Source: Phytoseiulus persimilis | Taxonomy: Eukaryota; Arthropoda; Arachnida; Mesostigmata; Phytoseiidae | Assembly: GCA_037576195.1 (NCBI GenBank) | Contig: CM075101.1 | Span: 47,988,001-48,052,000, forward strand | DNA length: 64,000 bases | Direction of reading: 5' to 3' | Notes under the pieces: model-generated | Database searches by the model: none | Told to the model about the DNA's origin: nothing | Seen by the model: only the letters and a program-made list of their open reading frames with translations | Made by a program: the position numbers and the translations under genes | In this document: positions 1-32,482 of the stretch, piece by piece | How positions within the stretch are numbered: the first letter of the stretch is position 1 | Layout: every line of letters starts with the position of its first letter

Positions 1-2349
1 GTCCGTAGTTGACGTGATAAATTGCGGCACCAGTCAGAACCATACTGATATCATTTAACCATTCGGACTCGTAATGCCATCGCTTGGTTTGATTGTTCCA
101 TACGTGAAGTCTAGAGGGAAAGCCCACAATGCGGTCGGCGTTCTCGCACCACACTTGGAACGCAAACTCGAGCTCATCCGGAGTCAGCATGAGGATGTCA
201 TCGTCCAGCGACAACACGGCCTCAGTCTCGATCTCCTTGTAAGGGTAGAACCTGTTCGTCAACTTGTTCTCCTTCGATTTGATAACGACGAGCGATTTCG
301 TGGTCTTCATCAAGGGCGTTGGCGGTTCAACGCTCGGATTGTTCCACACGACCACGATTCTCGAGAGGGACGGCACGCTTTGCAGGAGGCTGATGAGTTT
401 CCTGAGTGATTCCAAACGATTGTAGGTGAGAATGACTGCGGTGAATCCTCGACTTTTCTGAGCGAATCGAGAGATGCTGTCCAAGGCGTAAGTCGGAGCT
501 GAACGTTGAGCGAAGAGACGCTCATCTAGAATCTCCATCACTGTCGACATCACAGCGACCGGCGAGCTCATGTATTTTTCAAAAATCGAAACGAGCCTCT
601 CTCGGCGATAGCGAATTTCCGCCGCGCTGAATTTCTCCAGGTGCTTCATGATGTTCGGTCGTCGCTTTAGGTTGAATTGGACCGTGAGCTCTAACCAATC
701 GACTCGCTCGGGAAACGGAAGGATCATGCGGTCGTCGTTGTGGATGAGCACTGGAATACAGCCCGCGCTCACGACCTCGGTGAATGTCAACGCCGACTCG
801 ACACCTATGCCACTGAAGATCAGACAGAAGTCGGCGTTCTCCAGAGCCTTGGGGTAATCCATGACACTCCACTGAGTCATCGAGAACGTCTTGAAGGCGC
901 AGCGCTTGTCGCGGCGTTTGGTGCAGGGTTCTAGCAGAGTCACGGAGCTCTGGGTCAAGCTCAAGACTAGTTTTTCGGCCCAATCTGGGAGCTCCGTCCA
1001 ACGTGAGATCGCCAGGGACCACGCTCTACTGAACCTGGAAAAGTATGCGGGTTGACCTCTGATTCCACGATTTTCATGTCGGAGTTTTCGAAACTGCTGA
1101 ATACTGTGGCGTGTCCTGCTTTTGGTCAAGACGCATACCTGAGCTTGTCCCCTTTATCTTCGATTCTGTAGGACGACAGCGGCAGCATCGGTATACTGAT
1201 ATCGAATCCGGGTCGATAACTCTGATCGGTGAGCGCTGCTGAGACGTGAATGGCTCGGCCTGTTCGTGGCGTGCTTTGGAGTTGGTTGAATACGAGGTGG
1301 TTGGATCCGTCCCCCCAGCTGGAAAGAGGAGTTTCATTCATGCCACCTCAACTATGAAGATTACCACCGGACTCCTAGGAACGACGGACTCCGAGTAAGA
1401 ATCCCACTTACAAGGACAACGTAGTCAGTACATCCGGGGTCATGGGATGGTGGACGCCGAGCGTATCAACACTTGGGACGAAGAGACAGGCGTCGCTGGG
1501 GTCGGATACAAAGTAATGTGACTTTCTCAACCATTCGAGCATTCGCATGTATTCCGAACTGGTTTCTGGAACCACTTGATTGCCGTCGTCGTCAACATAT
1601 CTGCGGAGAATGAGATTTGCTAGATTTCGATTCCACGAAACTGTAACGGAATCCGGGAGGACCGGGTCAATTTCACAAATTTAGCCCTCATAATCATTGT
1701 CAATCATACATGTGAACTCACTTAGTTATAGGATAGATGTAGACGGTGACTCTTTCGGCGGTTTTCCCGCACCGATGAACGTCTACACATTTCCAGTGGG
1801 TGCAAATTTCAGTGGGGAGAGAATTTCCAGTGATAACGTCGTCTTCATAGTAGGTATCTTGAACCAGAAGCGGTTCAAATACTCTGAAAATGCTCTTATA
1901 GATGAGTTTCAAAGATCGAAGAGAAATAAGAACATAGCTCCATGTGAGGACGACATGTTCAGACAAGTGGGGTGAAGAGCGCATCGGAGCTGCGATTCTT
2001 CCGAGCCGACAATATAACACGAGGCCCAGAGGAGAGTTCACAGCCGAAACATGGTGAGCTCGTTTGACAGACTCCAGATGCGCACCCGCTGATCGAACAC
2101 AATTCGAACGGAGCGACCGAGGAACTCTATAGGTGACCACAGAGCCGCCCTTCAAGAGGGAAGAAGTCGAGGATTTTGCGTTCTGAGTTGATGAGCTGCG
2201 TACCTTTTATCGTATGTGGAGGCCGATCTGTTCTGGATGTACAGCCATACTGCATAACCCACGAGCAGCGCAATGGCGAGCTTCGGCAAAATGCGCCAGC
2301 GGTAGCTCGTGGTATCCAGGGTCAAGTTCTTCTCCGGAAGCAGATACAT
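1..2349 (-). CDS. EXT2: Exostosin-2 (EXT2), heparan sulfate co-polymerase, 3' end beyond window
   Basis: Golgi type II membrane glycosyltransferase that elongates heparan sulfate together with EXT1. Exons read on the minus strand: 2349-2204, 1883-1722, 1600-1412, 1318-1139 and 1058 to the window edge; all junctions are GT-AG and the phases agree. The first exon encodes a short cytosolic tail and one membrane anchor (ILPKLAIALLVGYAVWLY). The GT47 half follows (CVDVHRCG, KYVDDDG, WGDGSNHLVFN, AGCIPVLI). The GT64 half has FTAVILTYNR, VVVWNNPS and the DDD metal-binding motif in LSLDDDILML (about 197-205), then SMVLTGAAIYH at the edge. Sequences such as IDDD-type MLTPDEL match EXT2 better than EXT1 or EXTL3 from memory of the families. 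The start ATG at 2349 gives the usual short tail before the anchor. The last part of GT64 is outside the window. Confidence 0.9.
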
Positions 2350-3374
2350 CGTATCACATCTTAATGTCTCCCCGGTTCGGTGTGGAGCTTCGGTCACGCA
2401 ACTCCAACCAAGGCATTCTGACACCGATATTCGGAGTCTGCTTGAGCAAGACTGCGGTGCCACTATTCCGCTCTCGAATTTCCTCCTCGCCGCTCATGAG
2501 AGAGGCCTCTTTGTTTACACGATGTTGGCGCCCTCTTGTCAACCTCAGCAAGAGTTCCCTCGTTGCTTTCTCCTTCATCGAAATCCGGGAGCTTCCTCAT
2601 ATCCCGATCCGTCCGAGGAACAAGGTCTCCATAGATCTGGAAAACTCCCACATCAACCGTATCGTGGGTTGCGACTCGGCTGCGCGAGATCATGTTTTGC
2701 TTGGAGATTCGAAATGCATCCATTCTGGGCGGCGCCACGATCAGCAACGTTAGCTGAGCGCCAAAATCCCATGCGAAGTGAACGATTTCGATAGTATTTT
2801 GTAGGAGTGCATTGATTTTGATAGCTCCGTCGTTAACAATCAGGTGAGACAGAGAGTAATACCATCGGTGACCTCGATATCATTATTCGATGCGCTCGGG
2901 GCGACATTCATGCGCCCCTTTCGCAGCGGCGGCTCAGATCTCAGCAGAAAAGTCCAGCTCGGAGATTCCGACGTTCGGATACGAAAAGACAGTTTGACAC
3001 TCTAGTGAAATTCGGATGCTTTATCAATCCCTCCATGACGCGCTTACATTGCGGAAACTATAACACTGTTCAGCTGCTGACGTTCCCGGAAGTTTCCCCG
3101 CGAGTTCTCGAGCTGGGTTCTGACAGTTTCGCGCTCAGTAATGAACACAAGAGCATTGGAAATCCACGAGTTTCGTTCGAGTCTGTGGCTTCGAATGATC
3201 GAAAGGATTTCATTCCAAACTACGCAGGCTTCACTCACTCCACGGCCTTCGACAGGAAGCGGTGGCTGACCTTCTACGTTCCGATCCAGACTGGGGAAAA
3301 TAGCCCTATTTATTCCATGGCTTCATATGCTTTCCAGCTACTGAATCTACTCTCCGTGCAGTTGCAGATGAGCC
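2350..3374. promoter_or_regulatory. Divergent intergenic region between EXT2 and RIF1-A
   Basis: About 1 kb separates the start codons of EXT2 (minus) and RIF1 copy A (plus), so it should carry both 5' untranslated regions and either two promoters or one shared promoter. Open frames here are short and overlap on both strands, and none resembles a known protein. No clear TATA box was seen. Calling it regulatory is an inference from gene orientation. Confidence 0.5.
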
Positions 3375-6300
3375 ATGGAACTTACGGACGCGAAGTCTCT
3401 CACGGAGACTCAAATTTCGAAGAAGTTGGAAGAAATACGAGCTTGTCCCCCGGCTAAAAAACTACGAGACGTTTTCGAGTGGATTATCAAAGTGCCGAAA
3501 ATTCAGCCCAAGCTGTTTGCTGAAGTGGCTGCTACTCTCGGGATAATCCTGGAGCAAACTGAAGATGTGAACATTCTGGAAAAGATAATCCTGTTCTTCA
3601 GAGACAGTTTGGAAAAATGCGAGGGAGCCTGCGCAGAACATTTTCTATACGTTTCGTTCATGGTTCACGCGCATGATAACCCAGCTCTGGACAGTGTAGC
3701 CAGCGAAATCCTCCAGAAAGCACTAGAGAAATCCTCGGAGAGTGACGAAGTCTCCCAAGTAATGTCGTATCTTCTGAAAACAAGTATTGTGCCGAAGCTG
3801 AAACAAATGGCTGAAGCGAAGAACTACACGAGCTCTTTCGCTGTGTGGCGAGCCGTTGTGCGCACTACGAAACTGAAAATATCGACTCCAATCACAAATG
3901 ACGTACTCCAGGTTGCCACCATGGCGTTCAAAGAAAACAATCCGGAGTACCACACCCTTGCGTTCAGGAGCTGGAAAATACTCATAGAGAATCTCCCGCC
4001 CGACGTTTTGCGTAAACCCGCTTACATCCGACTGATTCTTAACCCTTTAAATAGAACTTACCGTGATACCGACGCGAACAGCGTCCTCCAGAAGTACATT
4101 GCGTGGTGGCAACACGTCGTGACTCTCGCTGAGGATGCCGAGCAAAACTTCGACGACGTGGTAGTTCCGCTTCTGCAAAGAGTTTTCTGTATGCCTTCCG
4201 CTAAGGCTCGTCAAGTGAATCCGACGGCTTTCGCGAACCCCACCAGAACCATTCCACAGTGCGCCTACACCATTTGGGTTTTTCTCTGGTACGACGGAGA
4301 CCCTGAGCTGCGAAAAGAGCTGCAGCAGCTCGGACACGCGAACTTTGGAATCAATGAGCACACATTCGGAGTTTCGTGCCTTGCGAAACATTCCGGCGTC
4401 CTCGAAGATGCCACTTCCCTCATCGTGAATAACATAGCGCAGAGGGTCTGCCCTCCTCCGAAAGACTACCCCTTCTTGCTGTGCCGAGTCCTGCTTTTGC
4501 GGATCAGATCTTTCTATGAGAACGATCTAAACGACATGGTGAGGTTGCTCCTGTCAGCCGTGTACAGCATCCTTCAAACGAAGTTGGAGCTCGAGCAGAC
4601 GCTGAGAATTTTCCGGGTTTTAGCCGAGAAGCTTCCATCGAGGGTGATGTCGTCCTCGCAATTCAACTTCAGAAGAGGAACGTTTAGCATGCACGAGTGT
4701 CCTTTGCTGACTCTGACAAGCTTCTACATTCGGCATGTGGCGGAGATAAGTCAGGCCGCTGGGGGCGAGAGCAATCGGAAGAAATTCAGACAAGGTCTCA
4801 AGACGCTCCTCGACAAGGGGAGGAACTGTATGGACGCCCTGCGCTTAGCAGACCACTCGATGCTCAGTCTCCAAGACGCCGATACGTTTGAGGTCGAGAC
4901 CTGGCAAGAAATTTCAGCGTTTCTGATCGAGCACATCGAGCGCACCACGAGCACCGGAGGCAAACTTGAGCATGATTCCGGAACCATTTCGAGCGCTCTG
5001 GCTTTCCCAATGCGGTAAGTTCGCGAGCTCATCGAGCTCGGGTCTTTCCTTCGTCGAAGTATCGTCCATCTCGGAACAGTTCTCCTCGAAATGGCGACCT
5101 TCCCAATCCTCTAACGAATTATCGGCACTTTCTCAGGGGTTCCTTCCCGTTGACCACAGGAGTGACCAAAAGTTGGATAGAACTTCTGCGCACAAACATG
5201 AAGGCCAATGCTCTTTCGGAGGGTCTTGCTCCGAATCAGCATTTGGCAGACATATGCAATTGTGCTCACGAGCAAATTTCGAAGTCCGTCTACGACCTGA
5301 ACCGCCTACTGCTGATCTCCCAGATGATGGAATCTCTTGTGAAGCACTGTGACCTCCACTCTTCCTCGACGCCGTCGGACTCCACTCCTACTCGACGAGC
5401 TCGAAAACTGGGTTACTTCGAGCCTTTCGTCAAATGCTTGATCGAGATAATTCGGAAAGGCTGCGAGCAACTCCAGAACGAGAAGCAACCCAAAGCCGCG
5501 TGTCAGTTTTATGTGAACGTCATGGAAATGGTTCACACGCTCCTACGAGACAGCAAGACAACGGATCTGTGTAGGGAATTTATCCTCAAACTCGTTCCAG
5601 AGTTGGCACCCATACTTAAGCTCACAGCGGATAAGACCACGATGAGGAGTTCTCCGCTTTCCCACGTTGAAAGTGCTCTACTCACAGCCGTGGACCACGT
5701 ACTTTACGCACTGAAAAAAAAGTCGAGCGATCTCCCCAAACGAGACGAGGTGCTATTGGCAGTGATTAGACTCGTCGTAAAAGAGTTAGCCAATCACTGG
5801 AGGGCGTCGATCAATGAGACCGTACAGGAATTGGGAAAAGCCTTTTCAATAACACCGGATAAGGGAGCACAATTAGAGCGGAGTTTGTTGGGATCCGCCG
5901 AGGCTCAGGCCTCAACACCGGTATCCTCGACGAAATCCCGCGATTCCTCCGTTCTGAGACAGCGAGTGGATTCTCAACCTGAGCGAAAGTTGACTAGGGC
6001 CACGTCAGATGTTTCAGCGCTCAGAAACGGCAGCGCACGAGATAAGGGAACTCCGAAACCTACCTCGGCCCCGAAACGCAAATCAAGGACCACACCCGAG
6101 GAAGAGTTCGTCCCCATCATCAGCACGAAAAAAAAGAGCGAAATTTTCACTGAGCATCAGTTGGAGAAGTTGAAGGAGCAGAAGATAATCCCGAGTATGT
6201 ACGAGGATCTTTCTCGAAGCTCCCAAGGGACTCTGATGGGTCCGCCGCCGAAGCCACCCGAGACGAAACCGCAGGCTCCAGACGTGAAAATTAACTTCGA

Positions 6301-7666
6301 GCCTTCGACGTCGAACGGTTCCGCCACCAGCAACGGCAGGCCTTCAACGAGAGAGTCGACCAGGAGATCGGCTGCTCCGAGTCGCAAGGCGAGTTCCAGG
6401 AAAGTCAGGGACTCCAGCTCGGACGATAATTTAGAATTCGCGTTCAGCGCAAACTCCCACGAGACATCCCCAGAAAATGATATGCCGTCGGGGAGGACAG
6501 CTGCCAAAGATCAGAACAGGGAGAACAAGGAGTTAAAGAATGAGGATAGTCTTTTGGGATCTCATTCGTCGGGGGTCACGCCAGGAAGCACAACTGCATC
6601 TCAGGAAGCAACATCGGAGGGAGTTACTGAGCCGCAACCCTCGACTGAGCGCGCAGTCGACAGCTCTGAAAAACCGAGAGGCGCATTGAAAAGGAAGTTG
6701 GGTGAGTTTTTCAGCTTCCTCTCGAGCCTTCGAAAGGAATACCGTAATCATCCGAATCGGGGGAATCTCCTTCAACGTGGTGCTCTCAAATGACTCATCT
6801 AATTTGTTCCTGAGTGGAATGTCAGGGCCCTCACTTCTCGGGGATACTGAGTGCGGCAATCCTATGGACCGGACGAAGGTCTTTGAGGGACTTAGGGCGA
6901 ATCGGCGCGTAAGCGATATTAGTCTATACTGGCGGACGCCCTGAAGGCGCCGCTGGGTCGTCACCCGGTGCCCCCTCTGGCTCAACTGCAGGGAAAACCC
7001 TCAATTTAGATTGAATACGGTATTTATGTGAGTCGGCGGTGTGGCTCGGTGTCTCATGAACGCCATCAATCCATAGAAAATCTTCCATCTCACGTGTCCA
7101 CCTAATTCTCAGGGAGACCGACGCACTCGCCTCTCGCTGCGAAGCTCAGACCGAAAAGATCCAGCTCTAGCACGGACAAGAAGAAGAGTAAACGTTTGCA
7201 GCTGAAATCGGATAACGGGCACTCTCTGGGAGCCGATAACGACTCCATGGCAGACGCCCACGAAAAGCCAGACGAGGCAGGTGACGCTCTCAAACCAAAA
7301 CTGTCGGAGAGCGCCCTTCCGACAGAAGAACCTGTCAACAATGGAAACGGAACCAATTTCGAATCTACCCCGGTCAACACTTCAACGCGGATTTTGTTGA
7401 TAGTTAAAAAGAAGCAGGAGTCCTCGACTGCTAAGCTCGGAGTTTTGGAAAAGGTGGACGACGACGCGCAATCCAGCTCTCCTTCTGAGGATAGAGAGAA
7501 TTCTCAGCAGTCACTGGTGAATCGGATCAAGGGCGCGGTGGGAGTCCAGAGAGAAGGAGTACTCAGATTTGTCTCCTCGCCAGAGTTCCTGAAAAGCATG
7601 TCGACCGACGAGCGACGATTATTTTTAGGGGCCTTCTTCAAGAATGTATCAGATTATATCCTGTGA
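3375..7666 (+). CDS. RIF1: RIF1 copy A (telomere-associated/replication-timing factor), PP1-docking pair absent
   Basis: Nuclear scaffold that in other animals controls replication timing and double-strand break repair, largely by recruiting protein phosphatase 1. Exons 3375-5014, 5137-6701 and 7113-7666 give 1252 residues with intron phases 2 and 1. Exon 1 encodes the RIF1 N-terminal HEAT-like helical repeat (SWKILIENLP, LNPLNRTYRDTD, VVVPLLQRVF). Exon 2 continues it and then becomes charged and disordered, with the conserved block IFTEHQLEK followed by IPSMYEDLSRSS near residue 880. Exon 3 ends in a helical C-terminal segment (SSPEFLKSMSTDERRLF). The SILK and RVSF motifs of copy B have no intact counterpart in exon 3. 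The start ATG (GCCATGG, good Kozak context) aligns with the N terminus of copy B. A poly(A) signal lies at 8005. Confidence 0.88.
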
Positions 7667-8004
7667 GGATCTCCTGGAATAATTTAGAGATTTGGAAACC
7701 TTTTTTCCTGCACGAGAAACCTTTTTTCCTTGGGCCGTGGGGGCCCAATCTGCATGGGAGAATAACACACCTGTTGTTGCGGCTTCGCAGATCTCGAAAA
7801 TGGAGAATTTCCTCCAAGTCATTGTGCTTATCGCCAGAACTCGTTCCAGCGGATTCCGTGGAACCTCGGTTGTGAATCAATCTATTGTGGAAACCGTGAC
7901 TTTATCGAGCTCAAAAGTTTATTTAATTAATATCGAAAGTTGATGTTTCTCAAGACCACATGAATGAAGAATGGAAAAGCTGACCTTCTTGTTCTGAAAT
8001 CTGT

Positions 8005-8010
8005 AATAAA
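8005..8010 (+). terminator. AATAAA poly(A) signal of RIF1-A
   Basis: Canonical AATAAA about 340 bases after the copy A stop codon on the same strand. It is the first such hexamer noticed downstream, so a 3' UTR of roughly 350 bases is inferred. Confidence 0.6.
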
Positions 8011-8689
8011 GAATGGATATCTTGCCTTTCGGACGTCTGACGCATCTCCTCCCGATAGCAGCACGGTCATGGATTGAACAACACTTCTAGGCAACGTGTA
8101 TGTAACGGAGCACCATCGTTCTGTACAGTGGTGCTCCGAGATAGCTCGATCGAAGATGCCCGCGAAGGCGAGAAGTATATTCTTGCAGGAATCACCCTCC
8201 TACAGCTCGACTCGAACTAGCTTACCTTGTTTCGAGATCTAAGTGGTCCGACATCACTTAATTCAGCCTCGGCAGAATTCGCGAAAACTCCGGAATCGAC
8301 GTGGGTCGAAATTCTACTGCATCACCATCATGAAACCCGCTGACAATGGTGGGATTCCGACCGGTAGAACGATGGCTGTATCAGTAGAAATTTCCTGAAT
8401 GATTGTCTCAGCCGCATACTTGGACCTCGAGGCTCCGTGGAACTTTCCGAAAACCGGTTGTGCAAGGGTTATCGCTCCCGGCATTCGAGTTAGAGCTTCC
8501 CGGTACCGTGGATTTTCGTTATCAGAGTACCATTCCTTGGAGAAGCAAAGCCCGATAGACCTTCCCGTATGCGACCGCGACAACCCGCCGGACTCTTCCG
8601 CTGGGAGCAGCGAATGGAACTGTTTCATTGCACCGTGTGTACATGCAGCCCTCCAACCACAGCGAAGTTTCCAGCAATGATGGATAAGA

Positions 8690-8860
8690 TTCGGGTTCGA
8701 CTATCCAAATCTAAATGTGACCATCCGACGATCCTCGAGTACGAATTTGAGTATTCACATTGGAGTTCGCGTTCGAGTCCAGATCTGACTCCAGTTTGGG
8801 ATGATCAAGCGGATTCGGATCTGAGTCGGTTCAGAATCCGGATTTGAATACGCATGCGTT
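8690..8860. repeat. Degenerate GGATTC/GAATCC hexamer-rich patch
   Basis: This stretch is dense in variants of GGATTCGGA, GAGTTCG and GAATCC in both orientations. A similar patch lies at 20088-20275. It looks like a diverged short-period satellite rather than coding sequence. Confidence 0.45.
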
Positions 8861-10779
8861 GTGAATGGTTTCGAAGGGAACCCGCGCTGAGAACCGGCTC
8901 GTGAAACCCGGTCCAGGGTCTGAGCTCCTAGTATCGATGGTGATCAGAATTACGTAATACGGTGGTTTCGAACTGAACAGATGTATGGTTCTTGTTTTGT
9001 CGTTGTCATCAGCGGAGGATGGGCCGAAGGCATCCAGCAAGTTATTGTTCCAAGAATCAATCTTTCAGAGCAGTCCCAACCAAGGAATACGATGCAAACA
9101 GTTCAAGCCGCCGCAATAATGCTGAAGATCGGCAACAACCTAGACCCTCAAGTCGCTCAGTGTCCGGAAGAACTTATCACGGCCACGGCCAAGTTTCCTC
9201 CAATCAGGCGCAGTCGAGCACTATTCGCTCGCTGCTGGGCGGAAGATTCCGAGGAAGCTCAGCCGAACTCCACAATTGAATATCGCCGCCCCCGGGAAAG
9301 AAAAGTCGTCCAAGTGCCTCTCATCTAGCCGTTCAAGCGTGCGTAAAGGCTTTCTTGGAGGTTTTGACTTCCAGTGCAAAAACTTCGAAGTTGAAAGCTT
9401 CAAGGAATTCGTGGGGAAGCTACCCTCGAAAATGAGAGTAACCATTTGAAAACTCGCGGATTTCAAACACGTCTCGTTCCTTGGAAGCATTTGGAAGCAA
9501 CCCACCACCAGGATCGAAGCATGAGAATAGCGAGCAAAAATCATGGACTCCTGGAAAAAAGGGGTCAGCGGCGATTCCCGGGCAGGGGAAGCGTGTTCGC
9601 GCTCCTTCTCGGTGGGTCCATGTGACAAGGAAGGTTTGAAACTCCTTCGCTAGAGAATCGTGCATATGCCTTAGAAGCACACGATTTCTTCACGATATGG
9701 ATGAGCGCTCGACTTTGAAATTGCCGCCGTTCTTGTTCCAATGCAGCTCACTGTTTTGATGTCGTCATTGCAGACGGCGCTACGGTCGTTTAAAGAGGCG
9801 CCATTCCTGTTGAAGCCGCCCGCCAAGAAGAGAACAGAACGCAGGGAGCTAGCGCTGGCGAGCTAACTTCGTTCCCGGCTGTTCGGTCACTGACTGGTTA
9901 CCTGATTGGTGATTGATAAGTTGTCTCTCACAGTGTAGCCTCATTGCTGATGAAGTCTCAAAGTCAGATTCAGTTAGCGGAGGAGGTGCACAACAATCTT
10001 TAACGTGTCAGACGTGATCTTCAGATGTGAGTAAAAAGTTTTGCTCCAGCGTTGGATGAGTCCTCGAGAAATCCACGAAATATTCTCGTTTTCGGCGGAC
10101 CCCTAGGAGTTGCTCCTCTATTTATGGTATACAGTCAGTTTTCCAAGGAGCGATTACACAGCGGGTGCCTACAGCTCTCTTGAAGAGGCTCTGGTATGCT
10201 AGGGGGTCTTGAGTGACAACAGCTTCGAGTAGAGAGCTGTCTTCTGGCTCTCCTCGAACGTGAGCCGCGGATTCACGGCTCTGCAAGTCTCTCTCAACGT
10301 CATGTCTCCGCTCTCTGTGTGCGTGACGGTCTCCCATTCTCGAACTCGAATCGAGGAGACCTCCTCTCGACCGGCGATTCTCAGCGATTTGGAATTCATG
10401 CGGGTGAAATTCCGGGATCGAAACCTTTCTGTTTCTCGCACTGGATCTGCTGAGGCTTCACGGAGGAATAGACCATGAACTAAGATATGGCATCTTGCAG
10501 CTTCTTAAGAGTTCAAGAGAGCGACCAGCACACCCCTCAATCTGTCACAGATGTAGCCCTAAGAATCAACCACTTCCGTTGCAGAGCAACTCAATCACAA
10601 TCGGAAGTTGTTCCACCCTCGATCTCTCCGGCTCTCCGGGAGATAGGCTAGCCGGGCTGGTTTATCCTCGCTGCATCCGCCATGATCTTAGAAAGTGATT
10701 CTTTCGGGGATTGCGATGCGTAAAAAACATGCTCGAACACATTTGGCAGCTTCTCTTTGGCTTTCCAGCAGATCAACCG

Positions 10780-13700
10780 ATGGACCAGGATCCGAAAAGT
10801 GAGGCTCAAGCGGAGGAAACGCTTCAGAAGTTGAAAGAGACGCCGGCAGATCGACATGAGAGACCGGATCAGGTTGTCAGCTGGCTCATTAATTCGACCA
10901 ACCGTTACGGAAACCTTTTCACGTCTGTGTCACCCATCCTTTCGGAAATGCTGCTCAAGAACTCGTTAGACGTTGGATCCACTCTGGACATTCTCGACTT
11001 TTACAAGAAACATTCTCAAAAATGCAAGGGGGACTGCGCACCTCAGTTTGTGATCGTTGGCTTAGTAGCGAACGTACAGTGTCACGAACGCGTGGCGACG
11101 GCATCGGAGTCGCTCATGACAGCGATTCGGCCTTCGATATACCTGCACCCCAATACTTTGACGAACATTATCGAAGCTATCAGGGAGGTCGTCATACCCA
11201 AAATGAAGAGCCTAGCCGAGGCGAAAAGTTACAGAGAAGCCTTAGCCATATGGAGGTCGATAGTGAGATTCACGCATTTCGAGAAGATTCCCACAAGCGT
11301 CACAAATAAAATCCTTCACGTTGCTTCCATGGCCTTCAAGGAAATCAACTCTGAGACTCAGATCGATGCGTTCCACTCTTGGAAGATCTTCATCGAGAGC
11401 CTGCCAGAATCCACCGTCAAGAAGTCCAATTACGTGGCCCTTTTACTCAACCCTCTAAACCGCGTGTATCGCGACACTGACTCCGAAACGAACCCTCACA
11501 AGTTTTCTGTTTGGTGGCAACTCGTTCGCTCCCTGCGGTCTCATGCAGAGAACCACTTCGATCAAGTCGTCGTGCCCCTCATCCAGAAGCTTTTCAACCT
11601 GTCGCGGCATCACACGAAGTCCACCACTGATGCCGTTCATATGAACCGTAACGTGTCCCAGGAGGCGTATGCCATCTTCGCCCTGCTGCTTTACATGGGC
11701 AACAATGAAATACTCAAAGAAATGAACGGTCTGCACGAGAAACTACCAGTCAACCAACACGTGTTCAAAGACGAACATTTTGTGAAGCACTGCGCCCTCG
11801 TCCAAGAAGCCCTTGATATAATCATGGCCAATATCCTCGGAGATACATCCCCCTCGCTGCCTCCGAAAGTTTATCCCTACCTCCTGCTGAAGATCTTGAT
11901 TTCGCGGGCGAGCTCATTATACCTCATGCCATCAGCGGACTTGAGTCGTGCGTTTGTTGGCTGCGCGATGAAACTCCTCCGGAAAACCCCGCTTGACGCT
12001 GAGCAGAGTCTGGGCATCTTCAGCGACCTGGCCAATGGTACACCTCAGAAACTGATGATGTCGCCCAACTTCATCGTCGAATTCCCTGGCACTCCCATCG
12101 CACACCTGACTGTTTTCTTCATCAACCGCATGAGTGCCGTCTGTTCTCAGGGGACTGAAAATCAGAGGAAGCGATTTCGAAGTTTACTCAGAGTTCTGCT
12201 GGAACGAGCGTCGTCTGATTTCCTCGCCTACACTGACCATGTCATAACGAATTTCGGCGAAGTGGCCTCGTCCTTGGGAATCCCTATTTGGTCGGAATTA
12301 GCTGAACGGCTGGCGGAGAACATAGCCCATACTCATGAGGTGAACCAGGGCTCCGACTCGGAACCCAACTTCAATGCCATCATAAAAACTCTTCAATACC
12401 CTTTCAAGTGAGTGCGAACTTTCTCTCTCCTCCTGCTCCTTCCGGTGGGTTTTCTCACAGAATCAGGGAGCGGGTCCCGAGATTCTGAAGAGCACAATAG
12501 TGGCTCGACAGGAATCAATAATCGCTCCTCTTCTTCTAGGAAAGCTTCGTTCCTGACCGTCGACACTGTGAAATTGTGGTCGAAGCTCTTCACGGTCTTC
12601 GCGGCTAATGCGGTCCTAGTGAAGAACGTTGCTCAGAACCAAGCGATAGAGGAAGTCTGCCGTGCCTTGCTCGACGACCTGCGACTTGCTGAACTGAGCC
12701 TACATCGTCTGCTGCTCCACAGTCGGGCTCTGGATTCTGTGGTGCGACAAATATCACCGGTAACTGTTGAGGACAAGAAGAGGCCGCTCGGCAACTTGGA
12801 TTCTTTGGTGAAGTGCTTGTCGTTCATCGGTAGGGAAAGTTTCCAATACATTTCGGACGTGAAGCAACCCAGAGGCGATTGTCAGTTCTTCGTCAACTTC
12901 GTCACGCTTTCCTATCACCTGTTACACACCGTCGAAGATACGCAACTCTTCAAGGAGCTCTGCAACGCTCTTCTCCCTGACCTCTTGCCTCTATACGAGT
13001 CCACGAAGAGCAGGAATATCATCCGAGAGACCTGCCTGAATCAAGTAGAAGCTCCGCTGACGAGCATCCTGGGTCAGCTGTCGGAGGAGCTCGTGTCCAA
13101 GGCTTCTTCTATCGACGACGACAGCGAGTTCGCGAGGAATATTAGGAGCGTTCTCAACGTAGCCACGGGTCACTGGAAACGAAGTATTCGCGACGCCTTC
13201 GTCGCCTACGCCAACTCGATATCGATGCCCGTCGGGGACGGTGATCAGTCATCGCAAAGTCTGTCGCAATACGTCAGCGTCTCCGATGCAGTCCCAATCA
13301 TCGTGTCCAAGGCTCCCGTCGCCCAGGAGAAGGAGGCCGCAGTTACGAAGCGCAGGAGTTCGCGGAAGGCTGCTAAGCCCATCGAGAACGAGGATTTCAC
13401 ACCTATCAAGAGTGCGAAGAAGAAGTCGATTTTCACGGAACACCAGCTTGAGAAGCAAGCGGAGTCCAAGGTCATCCCGAGCATGTACCAAGACCTCTCT
13501 CAGAGTGTTGATAAAAAACCCACGCTATCAACTGTACAATCTGGACCGAGTGCGACGATCGCGTCGAGCGCTCCCGTTGTGGATGAAGATGCGAATTTCG
13601 ATGTTGATTTCAAACCTAAAAAGGATGAAGAAGAGCCGGATGAGTATGGCTTATCGAACGGAAAACCCGTCAATGCCGGGCCTGATCAAGAACCGCTCGC

Positions 13701-15185
13701 GGAGACTACGAGCGGGAATTTGGAGATCGAAGGCATCCGACCTATTGAATCGCCCGAGGAGGTTGAAGCGGCTCTGCCTCCCGTCGCCGAAAGCGTCAAC
13801 AATGAGAACGACGAGCCACTGGCCAAGAAGAAAAAGCGCTTCTCCTACAATGAGAACGAGGATTTGTTAGATGCGGTTGCCATCGACCAGCAGCCGAGCT
13901 CGCTGATGAAAATGGCGGAGAAAATCCAACATCAACAGCTCCTCGACCGAGGCGAGATCGAAGCTGCCGTCTCTGAGTCCCCAATGCGGAATTTCGTTCC
14001 TCGGAAAAGGAAAATCGGTAAGGTCTCGGTCGTTTGAATAAGGTCGCCCCAGCTGACGAACCGATAATCTCGAGATCCCCCAGGTTTCGAGCCGTCAATC
14101 GTTCTCTGATTTCAACATGCTGACTCTTCTCAGTCGGGGAGTGATCGCGGTTTCTGGATTCTAACGGCAGCCTCTTTCTCTCTCTCTCTAAAGGTCAGAA
14201 TTTCGAGTCCCCCGTCCTGTCCCGGATGCCGCCGAAAAACACATTCCTCGTCCACTCGCCATCATCGAGATCTAGAAGAATGCTCGAAGCAGCTCAAGCG
14301 AAACAGACATGTCAAACTGACATGCGGCACATGCTCGCAGGCTCCACCCCGCGGCAGAACAATTTCTTCCCGATCTTCGATAATCCCCCTCAAACGCAGG
14401 TTTCGTCTACGGATGAGCGTCGTATGACCGTTGCCGCCGCGAATGGCGTCGGCGGTTCGATGTCGAGTCCTCCGTCAACTCGACGGAGTATCCTGAAGCG
14501 GTTTTCAACCGGAGCCTCGGTCAAAAGGGTGTCGTTTAGTAGATCCAACGAGGTTTGCCCATTCTTCAAGAACCGTACTTCAAAATCTCTATTCCCGCCC
14601 TTCACTGTCAACGATGATGAGGAGAATGCCACAGGCACCGGAGAGAATGAGGCGTCAGCAAAAGTCAACCTCTGTGAGAAATCGTTCCACGAAGATCCAG
14701 AGGAGGCTTCCGAATTCGCTGAGAATGGAGATGACACGAACGTCTCGTCTTACCACAGCGCCAACAACTCCGTTCGTCTCGAACTTTCTATTGACGACGA
14801 TTCACCCGAAGGGAAGGTCCAGTTTGAAACTGGTGGTTGCGACCGGGGCTCGAGAACTGGGCCTGACATCGCGGGAGCCGGGATCGGCGCTGACAACGAA
14901 AAGTTCAGCGATGCCCTGACTGACGCCCCCAGTGGGCTGGAACCCTCAGAGGTGTCCGAGGAAATCGCAACAAGCGGCCCCAGCTCCGCAGAAATCGGAG
15001 GAGGAGCGGCTCAGCCGACTCCAGAACTCAACTTGGTCGACTTAATTAAATCGGCGGACGGCGATCAACGCAAACAGATGTTGGCTCATGTTTCGTCCAT
15101 CGAGTTCTTGGCGAAGATGACAGCTGATGAGAGGAACGCTTTTGCGATAAGAGTTTTCACGAACATTGGATCTTATGTGCAGTGA
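10780..15185 (+). CDS. RIF1: RIF1 copy B, with SILK and RVSF PP1-docking motifs
   Basis: Second full RIF1 gene, in direct tandem with copy A. Exons 10780-12407, 12540-14017 and 14194-15185 give 1365 residues, with intron phases 2 and 1 as in copy A. The N-terminal HEAT-like domain contains SWKIFIESLP, LNPLNRVYRDTD and VVVPLIQKLF. The block IFTEHQLEK followed by IPSMYQDLSQS lies near residue 840. In exon 3, SILK (14487-14498, residues 1134-1137) is followed 9 residues later by RVSF (14526-14537, residues 1147-1150). In flies and vertebrates this pair binds protein phosphatase 1. The C-terminal helix block contains SSIEFLAKMTADERNAF. The start was set at 10780 because MDQDPKSEA aligns with the copy A N terminus; an in-frame ATG at 10729 is possible. 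Copy B is the likelier carrier of the conserved PP1-dependent role. Confidence 0.9.
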
Positions 15186-15979: not shown

Positions 15980-18238
15980 GGGTGGATGCAAAAGCCCTGT
16001 GCCCTTCGTTCCGATCGCTCATAGCTACGCTCCCATGAGACGCAGGAACACTTCCAACTTGACGAAATGTGCGGAATCATGTCAGCTTTTAGATGCGAAT
16101 TTCGAATATTCGAAAAGCGGCGTGTTACCGCGAGCGATTCCTCTGAGAAGGTCCGAAATCGAATGATCGGGATTTTACGATTCCGGCGAAACCAGCACCA
16201 TGATCCCCAATTTTCTGGTCAGAGTCATGAAGTTCGTCGAAAATGAGGCGGCTTCAGAGAAAGCTTGAGCAGTTCGGCCGCGGAGATATCGGCCCCGGAA
16301 AATCTGTTCTTGTAGTGATTTTTCTCTCGCCGATTGGACATTCTTATGGATGGGACAGGCTGGAGTTTCTCCGGGAACGCTCCGGAGCCTCTTGGTGTCA
16401 TTCAATGTCATTTCACCCAGAGTTATCGATATTTCTTCCCTCTGGGACAATGATCTCGATTGCTCCGGCAGAGAGGACTTGTAGGCTTTCCCACAAAATG
16501 TCAGGGTCTCGAATGTTATAGCTGGGAGGAGCAACGTCGGGAACGGGTAAGAAATTACTTTGGTTTTCGCTTAAGCAGACGAGAATGATCCCGATAATCC
16601 GACTCCCGATCTCGGGGTCACTTCTCGCAACGCGAACATTCTTGGGAGCCTTCTGGGTCTTTCCAGTCCATCAGACCGTTCAATCGGGGAGGGGGTAACA
16701 GAAAATCCGATCTAAAGGGACCAATATCTCCGCTTCGTGACGATCAAATCGCTCGAGTTTCTCTTTTTGAACCGCTCAATTTTCGACGAACTCGACGAAG
16801 GATTCTGAAGAGAGAATACGGGGTCACACAGTACGAACTCGGTTATTTCAACTAATCGATGCGAGAAACGGTTGGAATAATCGGGGCTGCACTGTATATC
16901 AAGTTTGAACAATCGAGGCTGAATCCCAACCGGTTAGAATATTCAAGGTTGGAATCCGGATGCTTAAAATAATTGAAGTTGTACTGAAATTCTAGTTTCG
17001 CACGAATCTCAAGATCGTGATTTTTCGGCTTTCGACGTTTTCAGTGGAATCGCTCGTGTGAGTTCGCCGCTCTTACAAACGCGTGTACAGGGTGGTCATC
17101 GTAAGTCGGGAATTTTCTTACTCTCTCTTCTTTTGCTCATAAATCGGTGAGAAATTGTCCGATTCTGGAATTTTTTTTTGCGTTCGATAGCTGGAAGGAT
17201 GGCGCATCTTTTCCCCCTCGAATTTCGTGAATCGGTAGAAAATTGAATTTCGCAAATCGGCTCAAATATTGCAATTATTTTTTTTCAACTTTTCTCAAAA
17301 AAACAGTCGACAAACTTCTGAAGTCGACCGATCGAATTCGAAAGTGTCAAGGTCGACGCAGGATAGGATGCTGCTCAAACGCCCGGCAACTCCAGGTTTC
17401 TAGCTCAGGATCTGTGGGAAGGACGAAAGATCGTTTCAACCTTGACCTCAAGATCGACCTCCTGACAAGATCGCGTCCTCTTTACATTTTGGCCCGTAAC
17501 TCCTCAGGGAAGCCGAATTCGGAAAATTTTCTGAGGGCAAAAAGTTCTTAGATTGGTCCAAACTACCCGACAAAGAAGTTTACGGGTCGATCCGACAACT
17601 TTTTTTTTCCCGCCGGAGATCCCGATTTTTGAATTTTTTGAAGAAGTTGTCGGATCGACCCGTAAACTTCTTTGTCAGGTAGTTTGGACCATTCTAAGAA
17701 CTTTTTGCCTCTGGAAAATTTTCCGAATTCGGCTTCCCTGAGGAGTTACGGGCCAAAATGCAGAGAGAACGCGATCTTGTCAGGAGGTCGATCTTGAGGT
17801 CAAGGTTGAAACGATCTTTCGTCCTTCTCACAGATCCTGAGCTAGAAACCTGGAGTTGCCGGGCGTTTGAGCAGCATCCTATCCTGCGTCGACCTTGGCA
17901 CTTTCGAATTCGATCGGTCGACTTCAGAAGTTTGTCGACTGTTTTTTTGAGAAAAGTTAAAAAAAAATAATTGCAATCTTTGGGCCGATTTGCGAAATTC
18001 AATTTTCTACCGAAATTTGAGATGATAAAGATGCGCCATCCTTCCAGCTACCGAACGCAAAGAAAAATTCCAGAATCGGACAATTTTTCACCGATTTATG
18101 AGCAAAAGAAGAGAGAGTGAGAAAATTCCCGACTTACGATGACCACCCTGTATTGTATATTTCATGATTCCCCCGCGCCTCTTGGGAGCGGAGTCATGAG
18201 CGATCGAGATTAGAGGGCCAGGACTTTTGCATCCACCC
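15980..18238. mobile_element. Non-autonomous TIR transposon (family 1, copy 1) carrying a nested palindromic element
   Basis: The left end GGGTGGATGCAAAAG at 15980 recurs inverted at the right end (CTTTTGCATCCACCC, to 18238). The subterminal GATCGCTCAT and CGCTCCCA blocks also match in inverted order. Subtracting the nested element at 17088-18150 leaves about 1.2 kb. The interior shares short blocks with the copy at 32918-34330. No transposase frame was found. The target duplication could not be resolved, so the superfamily is left open. Confidence 0.65.
17088..18150. mobile_element. 1063-bp near-perfect palindromic MITE with TA duplication, nested in a TIR element
   Basis: It begins CAGGGTGGTCATCGTAAG and ends with its reverse complement; TA lies directly outside both ends (17086-17087 and 18151-18152). 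The arms are about 500 bases each with only scattered differences, around a central loop of roughly 45 bases near 17617. The TA duplication and CAGGGTG end suggest a Tc1/mariner-type mobiliser. No transposase is encoded. A 267-bp relative with the same ends lies at 34856-35122. Confidence 0.85.
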
Positions 18239-21909: not shown

Positions 21910-22290
21910 ATATCCGGGGTCGACCTCGGGATGGTTTTGGGACAGATTCGCGCCCGATCACAGAATCGATCTGATTTCAATTTTTAGGATCGATCGGGCC
22001 GAATTTTTGGGGGTATGTGGAAATGATTCCTGGGTCGATCTGACCATACTTTCCGGGATCCATGGGGGCGATTTCGGAGTGGATCTCGGCATATTTCTGA
22101 GGCTTCATGGAGGTGGTTCCTGGGTCGATCTGACCATACTTTTCGGCTCCATAGAGGTGATTCCGAGGTCGGTCTGACCATGTCTCTTGGGCCAAGATTC
22201 CAAGATCGACCTCGCAATCACCCCCATGGACCACAAAAAGTACGGTCAGATCGACCTCGGAATGACATGAAGCCTAAAAAGTATGGTCAG
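21910..22290. repeat. 45-bp tandem repeat array with an inversion
   Basis: The core GGTCGATCTGACCATAC occurs at 22033 and again 90 bases later, with diverged half-way copies, giving a unit of about 45 bases. Beyond about 22200 the same core appears in the opposite orientation (GGTCAGATCGACCTCG), so the array turns around near 22190. Several minus-strand frames stay open through the array because its period is divisible by three; this does not imply coding. Confidence 0.7.
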
Positions 22291-23639: not shown

Positions 23640-25570
23640 TGTCGATTCGTCTCCCTTCTCATTTCCCTCTTACAGGGTTGCTTTCTCTTCCACTACGAGC
23701 GGCCAGGGGGTGGTCCTCGCTAGGACGAGTAGAGCGTCAGTCGACACGGTCCGGTAGCAACGGGTTATCCAAATCGCGGATGTGCGCTGTGTCCTCTCTA
23801 GGGTATTCTTGTCCTTCTGGAATCGAAGTGCCCCTGGTCCCAACATCTGAGCTGCGTAGAGGGCAAAAGCTTCGATGACCATTGTCAGCATACGTCTTTG
23901 AGCTTCGGAGGCGCCGTTCCCAGCCTCAGCGCAGACGGCAGCCACATGGTGGGCACCTCTCGCTCCTGCATGGAGTATTTGCCGATGTGTACTTAGTGGT
24001 CCTGCACGATGATGTTCGGTCGACGGTTCGTCCTCCTCTCGATGAGCATTCCTGCCTCCGTTTTTCCTGGAGCGAGCTCGAGGAAGTTGTCTTTTATCCA
24101 CCTCGCGATGATGCTGATTGAGAGTGCGGCCTCCGACTCAAGTTCTTCGACAGTTTGTGCCAGTATGGTGAGGGCCAGATCATCTGCGTATGCAGTTTGG
24201 GAGACTCCTCCGGGTAGCTCGAGGCGGACAACGTTGTTGTGCTCGAGGTTCCACGGGGTTGGTCCGAGGACCGAGCCTTGCGGTAGCCCTGCTGAAATAT
24301 GCTGCCTTCTCCCTTTTCCATCTATGATTCTCGTCATATGATGCTCCTGTTTCTGAGGTAGGAGGCGATAATCGAGAGGAGATACGGCGGAATACCCCCC
24401 TCCTCCAGAGCCTCGAGTGTTACGCTCCACTCTTCAGGGTTGAATGCAGTTTTATGTCGAGAGGGATGAGGACGCAGATTTTTCCCCTTCCACTTGGTAC
24501 TTTCCTCTCCTCGTCTACTATTTTATGAATACGCTCCATAGCTGCCAGGGTTGAGCGGCTCTTTCGGAACCCGAATTGTGCGTCGGAGAAATTCATGTTG
24601 TCCTCCAGCTCGTCCTGGAGGCGCGCGTCTTTGACGCTTCCCATTGCTGAGGCGATTTTGTGGAGTAGGCATCCTCCTTGATGTTTCCCATTCAATCGGG
24701 AACACGCCCTCTCCAAGGATTTCATTTATAAGTTTCGCAAATATCCCTGGCCATCGAGTCATCAGAGCTTTTGTGACAGCAGCCGGTACGCCGTCCTGCC
24801 CGGGGGCTTTTCGGGTGAGGATGCGCCTAGCGATGGATAAGATTTCACATGTTCTGACCTTGGGTATGTCGTCTTCTTGGATTAGGTATTCTTTGCGTAT
24901 GAATGGTACCCCTATAGGGGGGAGTTTCTTCATCGCATTATTCATAGTGTTCTCCGGGAGTTTCAGTCCGCTGTGCTCGTCTTTCTCACGGATGATTTTG
25001 AATGAGAGTCCCCAGACATCACCTCTTAGGGAGTCAATGAGTTCTCTCCACTTTGCTCTCTTGGCACTTTTAATCCTCCAATGGTACTGCTCCTTGGCTC
25101 CGCTGTACGCTAGGAGGATCGAATCAGCTTCGGCCGTTGGGTAGGTCTGGTTTCTGCGAGACCAGGTGTATCCCCGCCTGGCAGCAGTGCGGGTCTTCCT
25201 CAGCGCGGCGACCTCGGGCGTCCACCAGTGGGCAGACCTTCGATTCGTCCGATTCAGGGCGGTGCGAGGGGCTGCGCAGGAGCACGCCTCCTCCAGCAAT
25301 CCCTGGACAATTCGCAGATCAACGGGTAGGTCGTCGTCCGTGATGGTCTTCCATTTCTCATCGATGTTTTGTGAGGATGTAGCGGTTCTTGCCCGTGATC
25401 TTCCACGTCCCTTGTTGCTGGGAGCTGTCGTCGACCAGGGCAGAGGTGATGCTGAAGTCGATGTAGTTGTGGTCGCTGGACGGTTCTGTTCCTTCGTCGT
25501 CGCTCTATTTGAGAACCTCGCACGCCTCCCCAGGGCGAACGAAACCTGCCCTAGCCGAACCGGGTATTTC
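23640..25570 (-). mobile_element. Broken R1/I-group non-LTR retrotransposon (LINE)
   Basis: Read on the minus strand it contains, in order: the last part of an APE endonuclease (SDHNYIDFSI, near 25441-25480); a linker with RRSAHWWTPEVAALRK; reverse transcriptase blocks RKAPGQDGVPA, FGFRKSRST, AGLPQGSVLGP and the catalytic YADD (AYADDLALT, about 24180); and the post-RT block YRTVSTDALLVLAR. These are typical of R1-like arthropod LINEs. The pieces lie in several frames: the endonuclease end is out of frame with the linker, and there are further shifts in the RT region. The 5' part of the endonuclease is missing. It is a dead, 5'-truncated copy. Target duplications were not found. Confidence 0.85.
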
Positions 25571-29717: not shown

Positions 29718-32482
29718 AGATGTGGTGAAAAATACACAGAAAGGAACGACATGCAAGATTGGACTGTGGAATTGTGAAGGACTGCGGAACAAGAGGAAAA
29801 TATGGAACGAACATCAGATTGAATCATACGACGCATTTGTCTTCACAGAAACGTGGGAGACGACATATGAGCTGAAAATGAACTCCTTTTACACAGCACA
29901 TTCTCCAGCACGAAAGCATGAAGGACCAGGACGTCCCGCTGGTGGAGTAACAGTCATCTATAATTGCAAACTGAAGGATGCCAAATGCACAATGGCAGAG
30001 GATAATACTGTGATCATACGAGCAACTAACCTAGTCATTATACCAATGTATATGAGTCCCTCGGAATCCGTGGAAACGTTCGCACAAAGACTGACCAACA
30101 TTTCGCAACATATTCGTCATGACATCCCGACTGTGATATGTGGAGACTTCAATGCCCCAATCAAAAACCCGAAATCGGAACGCACTAAGATACTCACAGA
30201 GGCTCTCCACACATGGGGAGCCACACAACTCCGACTTTCCAATCGCATCAAGGGAGCTCGACGATCGATCTGTTCGCGACAAATAGACAAGTGACCTACG
30301 ATGGGATACAGGAACACTTGTTGTTCTATGGGCTCACGGCGCATCTCCCTACCGGAATTGTACTGCAGATTGACGCATCGGACGTCAAGACAAAGAAAAA
30401 GAAACTGGAAAAAACGATAAACCAAAATTTACTCCTGGAAGGCGTGAAAGAACTGAACGAGATGCAGAGCATGAGCGTACGGGATATGTGCATACATATG
30501 TCGGCCCTCATCAGGAAATCGGTAATAAACCCGGTGACAAGACGGTCGAAACAATGGTTCGACAGACAGTGCTATGCTACACAGAGAGAACTCCGGGTGG
30601 GCACATCCGAGCTGATCCAAGGGAACGAGGAAATGACAAGAGTTCAAGAGTTTAGAAACTGTCACAGAAAAATGATAAGGATGAAGAAGAGAAACTACGA
30701 ACTTGAGAAAGAGAGATTACTTATCGAGGAAGCGCTTCACAACCCATACAAATGGCTCAGGAGAGATCGAAGTCGTCAGAACTGTCTAATTCCCTCCTAT
30801 GAGCTGGCAGAACATTTCGCCACGCTGTTCAACGCTGAAAACACGATCCCGACAGAGCTACAGCTGTTCTCCTGGGTCAGAGAAGAAGAAGAACAGGCAG
30901 AGGCCGAACTCATGGAAGCGACATGGTCGATCTCCGAGGTGTTCGATGCGATTCGACTTTTGCCCAGAAGCAAAGCTCCTGGCCCCGACCAGATTCTCAA
31001 CGAGCACCTTCAACAGAGTGGACCGATCATCCCGCACATGACTTCACTCTTGAATGCATGCCTTGAGCGTGGCGAAATCCCTCCAGAATGGAGGTACTGT
31101 GATCTGACCATTATCCGAAAAGGCAAAGGAAACCCTACGGAACCGTCCTCTTGGAGGGGGATAGCTAAAAGAAACGTCCTTGGAAAATTGTTGTCAGCTC
31201 TAGTCACCAAAAGATTGACAAGATACCTCGATTTCAAAGATGTCATCCCAAATGAGCAATTTGGATTCAGAGAAGGGAAATCAACAATCCTAGCTTGCGA
31301 AACCCTCATGAACAAGATCGAAACCGCTATTAAGCCGAAGCAAGCGCCACTATATGCCATTTTTATAGATTATTAGGCCGCTTTCGATCTTTCCGCGCGG
31401 GACATCATCCTAAGGAAAGTCGCCGAAGCGGGGGTAACATGTAAGATGCTCAGACTGATCCACCAAATGCTTCAAGAAGGAGGAGTAACGATCGACGACG
31501 GAGTTGGAGAGCATCCGCAATGCGCACAGACTACAGGAGTTGCCCAGGGAGAAAACTCCAGTCCATTGTTTTTTTCGGTACTTCATGGCGATCTACCGAA
31601 ACAGATCAGCAGCAGGCACGACCTCGTATCGACGATTCTGTACGCAGACGATGCCGTCATTCACTCACGTAGCCGCAGGCAGCTCCAAAAAGCAATGGAG
31701 ACCCTGCAAAATCACTCGGCTGACAACAAACTCACAATCAATGTTGCAAAGACGAAATTCATGAAAGTAGGGAGGGGAGGACTCCCGGCCGAGAGTGATA
31801 TCTTCAAACTGTCAGGCATAACTATCGAAAAGGTGAACAGCTTCTGTTATCTTGGAATAGAGATCACTAGTCGGGGTACCAATTTCGCGAGACATGTCAA
31901 GCAACGTCTCAACAAAGCAAAGCTGGCGTTCTACGCGATTCCTAAACCACAGGAGTTGTCGATATCCACAGCGTTGGCACCACTCGAACTAAAGATAGCA
32001 CCGATAGCCTCATACGGAATTCAAATATTTTGGAGACACATCACAGAAACACAGATGGAACTCTAGAGAACGCAAGAGCTGGTGAGGAAATACGAACCTC
32101 CGCAGACCCCGACGTACAAGCGACACCTTGAACGATGGTACCAGAAGATAGCAGAATTGGACCCTGAGATTTTCAAATGCCCAGCGTTGACCACCGAAAA
32201 CTGGAAAGGGCCCAGATATAGAAACAGACATCGGATAACAAGAGGTGCGGCTCATGGTTTTCACCCCTTGATCTGCTCAAAGGAGAACAGACACGAGCCA
32301 GCGGAGGATTTTCTCTGCTCTTTATGTGGAAACCCTTGTTCCCTATATAATTTATATGAATGAACCGGATATGACGAATTTGATTGGTTGAGATGTACAT
32401 GATCCACAGAGGTAGCATCCTCATACATACATATACTACCAGACATTGGTAATAAAATTTTCATCTTGAAAAAATATATATA
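29718..32482 (+). mobile_element. Nearly intact non-LTR retrotransposon (LINE 2), clade undetermined
   Basis: A 2.77-kb insertion with an exact 15-bp target duplication and an AT-rich 3' tail after an AATAAA-containing end (about 32452). The first frame encodes an APE endonuclease (IGLWNCEGL, VFTETWE, VICGDFNAPI). It is out of frame near 30255 with the following part (GSSTIDLFATNR), then reverse transcriptase blocks SKAPGPDQI, NEQFGFREGKST, IFIDY, TGVAQGENSSPLFF and LYADDAVIH. Two in-frame stops lie in the second part (31374-31376 and 32064-32066). The C terminus has a Cys-rich piece (FLCSLCGNPC). No RNase H was seen. Few lesions plus the exact duplication imply a young but dead copy. Confidence 0.88.

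Follow-up and report, generated by a model that had tools for sequence, protein, structure and literature searches.

Two tandem RIF1 genes in Phytoseiulus persimilis, one with and one without the paired SILK and RVSF motifs for PP1 docking

RIF1 performs work of two kinds: it delivers PP1 to replication origins, and it carries out work reported to be independent of PP1, such as the protection of DNA ends in yeast. In the species treated in the papers cited here, one RIF1 protein does both. A stretch of 64,000 nucleotides from Phytoseiulus persimilis, in the following called the window, holds two neighbouring RIF1-like genes, copy A and copy B. An earlier note on this DNA had proposed that copy B keeps the SILK and RVSF motifs by which PP1 is docked, that copy A has lost them, and that the functions are split accordingly. 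The locus hence raises the question of whether the two kinds of work could be divided between two genes.

Both genes were rebuilt from open frames and GT-AG sites (Table 1), and at each junction we picked the splice site most like the consensus that also fitted the alignment of A with B. The search for in-frame splice alternatives within short ranges gave 8 for copy A (GT or GC donors) and 14 for copy B (GT donors); all 14 listed combinations for copy B retain SILK and RVSF. The resulting model agrees with the earlier note on the position of the third exon of copy A. Both proteins pass the cut-off of 23 bits for the Rif1_N profile PF12231, copy A with 34.1 bits (E 2e-8; aa 112-259 correspond to 197-370 of the 374 profile positions) and copy B with 38.9 bits (E 6.8e-10; aa 133-264 correspond to 228-374 of 374). 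Together with the two introns, which match between the copies in position and phase, this bears out the claim that two RIF1 genes stand here in tandem.

Table 1. Coordinates of the two RIF1 copies and their motifs, given as positions in the window.
Feature	Position	Strand	Remarks
Copy A gene	3375-7666	+	3 exons, 1252 aa
Copy A exon 1, helical (HEAT-type) region, Rif1_N	3375-5014	+	open frame, GT donor at 5015
Copy A exon 2, remaining helical region, EHQ/MYxDLS motif, start of low-complexity tail	5137-6701	+	AG/GT flanked
KINF, lone RVxF-like, copy A aa 931-934	6287-6298	+	DVDF at the aligned place in B
Copy A exon 3, short tail lacking the SILK/RVxF pair, followed by the conserved C-terminal domain	7113-7666	+	
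Copy A C-terminal domain, aa 1201-1252	7508-7663	+	44% identical to B, predicted helical
Copy B gene	10780-15185	+	3 exons, 1365 aa
Copy B exon 1, helical (HEAT-type) region, Rif1_N	10780-12407	+	
Copy B exon 2, remaining helical region, EHQ/MYxDLS motif, tail	12540-14017	+	
Copy B exon 3, tail carrying PP1 module and C-terminal domain	14194-15185	+	
SILK motif, copy B aa 1134-1137	14487-14498	+	
RVSF motif, copy B aa 1147-1150	14526-14537	+	
FF, eight residues past RVSF	14562-14567	+	copy B
Copy B C-terminal domain, aa 1314-1365	15027-15182	+	
FTEHQLEK...IPSMYxDLS segment, beyond the helical part of exon 1	6146-6214 (A), 13432-13500 (B)		

The surroundings of the pair are mixed. Upstream of copy A, an Exostosin-type glycosyltransferase gene on the minus strand (2-1680) reaches the window edge, with GT64 and GT47 domains in 2-1153 and an extra GT47 match below the cut-off at 1411-1680. 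Downstream of copy B, 17086-18152 is a long inverted repeat of the foldback-element type, whose arms are complementary at 96% over 373 nt and at 94% over 142 nt, with 36 nt in the middle. A tandem array of period 45 (3.5 copies, 69% matches) lies at 22024-22181. Reverse-transcriptase domains were seen at 23996-24433 (-) and at 30189-32063 (+); the latter consists of two open stretches in one frame with a stop between them at 31374-31376 and is therefore probably a broken retroelement. Stretches with an RGS and a DEP domain (53627-54151 and 55343-55942, both minus strand) perhaps form one R7-type RGS gene, and the Mediator subunit Med16 occupies one long open frame at 60376-62793. A tRNA search of the window found none.

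Over exon 1 the two copies share 186 of 528 aligned residues (35%), and 65 of 147 (44%) in the core at aa 112-259. Identity amounts to 28% over aa 547-800 and 30% over aa 801-883 of copy A, is highest among the segments compared at aa 884-920 around FTEHQLEK...PSMYxDLS (23/37, 62%), and is 20% in the remainder of exon 2; the exon 2 tails taken whole show a weak likeness (Z 2.7; 2 of 200 shuffles). We take the FTEHQLEK...IPSMYxDLS segment to resemble a segment of vertebrate RIF1. The NG86 method gave a dN of 0.69 and a saturated dS of 3.3 for exon 1, with 25 of 76 four-fold sites identical; in two shorter segments dS was not computable. Because the silent sites are saturated between A and B, the duplication is old. 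The sequences speak for an old tandem RIF1 duplication under protein-level constraint, where the pairwise dN/dS averages both copies and is compatible with relaxed constraint on copy A alone. Relatives of exon 1 were found neither in viral contigs (64 pattern stretches) nor in bacterial and archaeal genomes (130), which are not where orthologs are expected. Judged by titles, the open-access literature yielded no report of duplicated RIF1 genes. In the excerpts available, PMC8820739 mentions paralogues of Rap1, PMC4811881 has no RIF1 paralog or duplication, and PMC3410773 has no duplication; a RIF1 duplication may be described elsewhere or be visible in public annotations.

For copy A exon 1 we computed an AlphaFold2 model from a two-row alignment with copy B as the second row. 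It is almost all-helical and of low confidence (mean pLDDT 63). Among the 1105 Foldseek matches to this model, four had an E value <=0.001, at a query TM of 0.12-0.24: two HEAT chains of the PP2A scaffold and two designed repeat proteins. Yeast Rif1 is not among the best 50 of the 1105 matches to this low-confidence model, and we read the search as neither proving nor disproving a RIF1 fold. In sequence searches of the PDB, which copy A entered only as a row of the A/B alignments, the alignments of exon 1 and of the C-terminal domain gave no match, and copy B exon 3 gave none either; copy B aa 1-771 gave one weak match (E 0.15), a TBPIP-family protein. In overall layout the pair resembles animal RIF1 (mouse, Drosophila), with a helical Rif1_N body and a long tail between it and the C-terminal end, but differs in comprising two tandem genes, of which copy A is without the SILK/RVxF pair. 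Yeast Rif1 shares the Rif1_N region (Pfam), a PP1 module and a C-terminal domain, whereas its PP1 module is N-terminal (PMC6035837) and its solved chains show no sequence match to copy B aa 1-771 or to the exon 1 profile of A and B.

Does copy B carry a PP1 module that can be trusted? Translation confirmed the reported SILK-then-RVSF arrangement at 14487-14537, with nine residues between the motifs (RFSTGASVK) in one open exon. We take KRVSF to fit the strict RVxF pattern as well, and the FF past RVSF is a possible PhiPhi-type extension. Consensus forms of both motifs are given in PMC6035837; for the statistics we used the degenerate patterns [GS]IL[RK] for SILK and [RK]x0-1[VI]{P}[FW] for RVxF-like motifs. 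Such a pair, within 30 aa and in either order, arises in 0.15% of 20,000 shuffles of the copy B tail (aa 830-1365) and in 0.8% of 8,000 shuffles of full-length copy B. With a spacing of up to 60 aa and all six frames of the window, it appears at two further, unrelated open-frame sites, near 17788 (+) and 57405 (-), so that by itself the degenerate pair is no rarity across 64 kb. Judging from the sequence, the pair rises above chance because both motifs are exact, because they follow the order and the C-terminal placement seen in mouse Rif1, and because the protein is independently a RIF1. A second RVxF-like match in copy B, KVQF at aa 1243, was set aside because such matches arise in 36% of the tail shuffles. 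Near the module, aa 1034-1153 hold a cluster of four serine-proline sites where 5000 shuffles average 1.4 (p 0.048); this, too, was judged too weak to count as evidence.

Mouse Rif1 has SILK at residues 2128-2131 and RVSF at 2150-2153, C-terminal like the motifs of copy B, and the nine intervening residues of copy B are half of the 18 in mouse (PMC5437018). These numbers place SILK first, as in copy B, in contrast to the order RVxF-SILK that is given for multicellular organisms in PMC3410773. A literature search for SILK-RVxF spacing gave no paper. Bipartite docking by SILK and RVxF, as in copy B, is also known from KNL1, Inhibitor-2 and Inhibitor-3, to which copy B is not known to be similar elsewhere along the protein, and in the Inhibitor-3 crystal the two pockets are bridged by 8 residues (PMC10066265), so that a spacing of nine is feasible. 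Basic residues precede both motif serines in copy B (RRS, RVS); in KNL1, phosphorylation of the SILK and RVSF motifs by Aurora B blocks PP1 (PMC6715587). The RVSA mutant of mouse Rif1 has less than 0.1% of the PP1 affinity, SAAA brings a loss of about 20-fold, and the double mutant shows no detectable binding (PMC5437018). In Drosophila, a phospho-site-mutant Rif1 disrupts the cell cycle, and no longer does so once its RVSF is mutated (PMC5963817). From these mutant effects, copy B should bring PP1 to chromatin, and by analogy its recruitment of PP1 is most likely.

Copy A offers a different picture. As had been claimed, it is without SILK/RVSF: its 1252 aa contain no match to [GS]IL[RK]. The claim would fall if a hidden exon near copy A supplied both motifs, and no such exon was found: the three plus-strand frames of 2300-10700 hold no [GS]IL[RK] match, in a scan blind to motifs that an intron interrupts, and since the window has no N, no sequence gap hides an exon. 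A tblastn search of copy B exon 3 against 5001-10700 clearly recovered only the C-terminal domain (E 1.3e-8); the next-best match (E 0.047) is antisense in copy A intron 2. The part of exon 3 before this domain aligns with B no better than shuffles do (Z 1.2; reached by 28 of 200), although a forced global alignment makes 37 of 132 residues (28%) identical. Because this stretch is at chance, the whole region differs between the copies, and not just two point-mutated motifs. For the same reason, the alignment lends no support to STRILLIVKKKQ, which had been put forward as the decayed position of the motifs in A; it includes LIVK (7397-7408), with no RVxF after it. The copy B motif segment finds its best match to the copy A tail in exon 2, again at chance (68/200), and STRRSAAPSRKASSRKVRD in exon 2 was rejected as an alternative remnant, its alignment being at chance. 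Rejected as well were GALK (6680-6691), which misfits [GS]IL[RK] and aligns with VPRK in B, and two candidate docking motifs inside predicted helices, KIILF (aa 70) and KYIAW (aa 240), the model being of low confidence around the latter.

The SILK/RVxF PP1 module, as the mark of membership, is thus present in copy B and absent from copy A, and canonical PP1 docking has likely been lost by copy A. That it was lost we infer from the reported universality of the module, found in all Rif1 homologues analysed with plant relatives set aside (PMC3410773); the absence of the pair may be specific to this genome. The same report would fit a decaying copy A, with its tail partly gone and on its way to a pseudogene. 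We regard this as very improbable, given that A runs through 1252 codons without a stop between intact GT-AG sites, that the pairwise dN is well below the saturated dS, and that the C-terminal domain is conserved. The open codons and the conserved end instead argue that copy A is a working gene.

Could copy A still recruit PP1 by a weak or non-canonical site, either KINF with other residues or LIVK, so that the copies differ in affinity and not in kind? The lone KINF in exon 2 does exist and fits the RVxF-like pattern, in the tail of A, with its position corrected from about 6283-6297 to that in Table 1; the meaning attached to it did not hold up. An RVxF-like match arises by chance in 18% of the shuffles of the copy A tail and in 73% of those of full-length A, and no PP1 binding was seen for the HEAT fragment of mouse Rif1, which has a solitary KIAF (PMC5437018). 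LIVK could be compared to the non-canonical LTIK that sits in the SILK pocket in Inhibitor-3, but LTIK adds almost nothing to the affinity of the full protein (PMC10066265), and 229 residues separate KINF from LIVK. Recruitment by such a site therefore seems unlikely to us.

Within exon 3, clear conservation is confined to the C-terminal domain, in which 23 of 52 residues (44%) are identical between A and B (Z 21.9; reached by 0 of 200 shuffles). Its model is helical (mean pLDDT 72.9). The C-terminal domain of yeast Rif1 tetramerises (4BJS) and is partly conserved to human (PMC6035837), so A and B might join through this domain, and we hypothesise an A-B oligomer of this kind. Copy A could then work with B in mixed oligomers, obtaining PP1 in trans or diluting it, which would set the PP1 load of each RIF1 assembly. 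The conservation of the domain, where all else in exon 3 is at chance, agrees with this, but neither by sequence nor by fold did the searches match the domain to the yeast one or to any other solved structure; its kinship with the yeast CTD or with vertebrate CTD-II/III is conjectural. We consider mixed oligomers an unlikely account, which overlaps with the last part of the explanation that we prefer.

That preferred explanation, which we hold to be reasonably probable, is an old tandem duplication of RIF1 after which copy B recruits PP1 while copy A acts independently of PP1 or joins B. Copy B keeps the animal-type C-terminal PP1 module and, with RVSF as the main and SILK as the second anchor, most likely brings PP1 to chromatin, where DDK phosphorylation would be reversed and origins delayed. 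Copy A keeps the helical body, the EHQ/MYxDLS motif and the C-terminal domain, without the region that bears the module, and most likely binds no PP1 by itself. It may act via PP1-independent RIF1 functions, for instance by protecting ends or by binding DNA or chromatin, or alternatively join copy B through the common C-terminal domain. In yeast, end protection is a matter of the N-terminal domain for which the PP1 module is apparently not required (PMC6035837), which makes it plausible that a RIF1 without PP1 has work to do. The nearest precedent for copy A are plant RIF1-like proteins, which have a RIF1-type HEAT core without the SILK/PP1 domain and were judged too diverged for further analysis (PMC3410773); unlike these, copy A adjoins a full RIF1, to which it is 35% identical in exon 1. 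At stalled forks, human RIF1 and PP1 act jointly to protect nascent DNA (PMC6547018), so not every protective role is PP1-free, which speaks against a clean split. The tails of A and B each hold 9 S/T-P sites, with 21 DDK-like sites in A and 12 in B; cell-cycle regulation of A may thus persist.

More speculatively, and at long odds, the copies could form a natural separation-of-function pair, in which PP1-free A assembles with B and the A:B ratio sets the amount of phosphatase per RIF1 assembly. In a variant, read-through splicing may join the helical body of A to the PP1 module of B: the exon 2 donor of A and the exon 3 acceptor of B have equal phase, and their in-frame join gives an open chimera of 1398 aa. 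Two points weaken the variant: paralogs would be expected to agree in phase anyway, and an AATAAA at 8005, between the copies, suggests that A ends before B.

In summary, the difference in motifs suggests a division of work between the copies. The split that had been predicted, with B in replication timing and A acting through its HEAT region independently of PP1, is our reading by analogy with known RIF1 proteins. If it is true, the presence in one genome of a RIF1 without PP1 and another with it would mean that evolution can separate the two jobs, and the pair would be a ready-made test of which RIF1 functions need the phosphatase.
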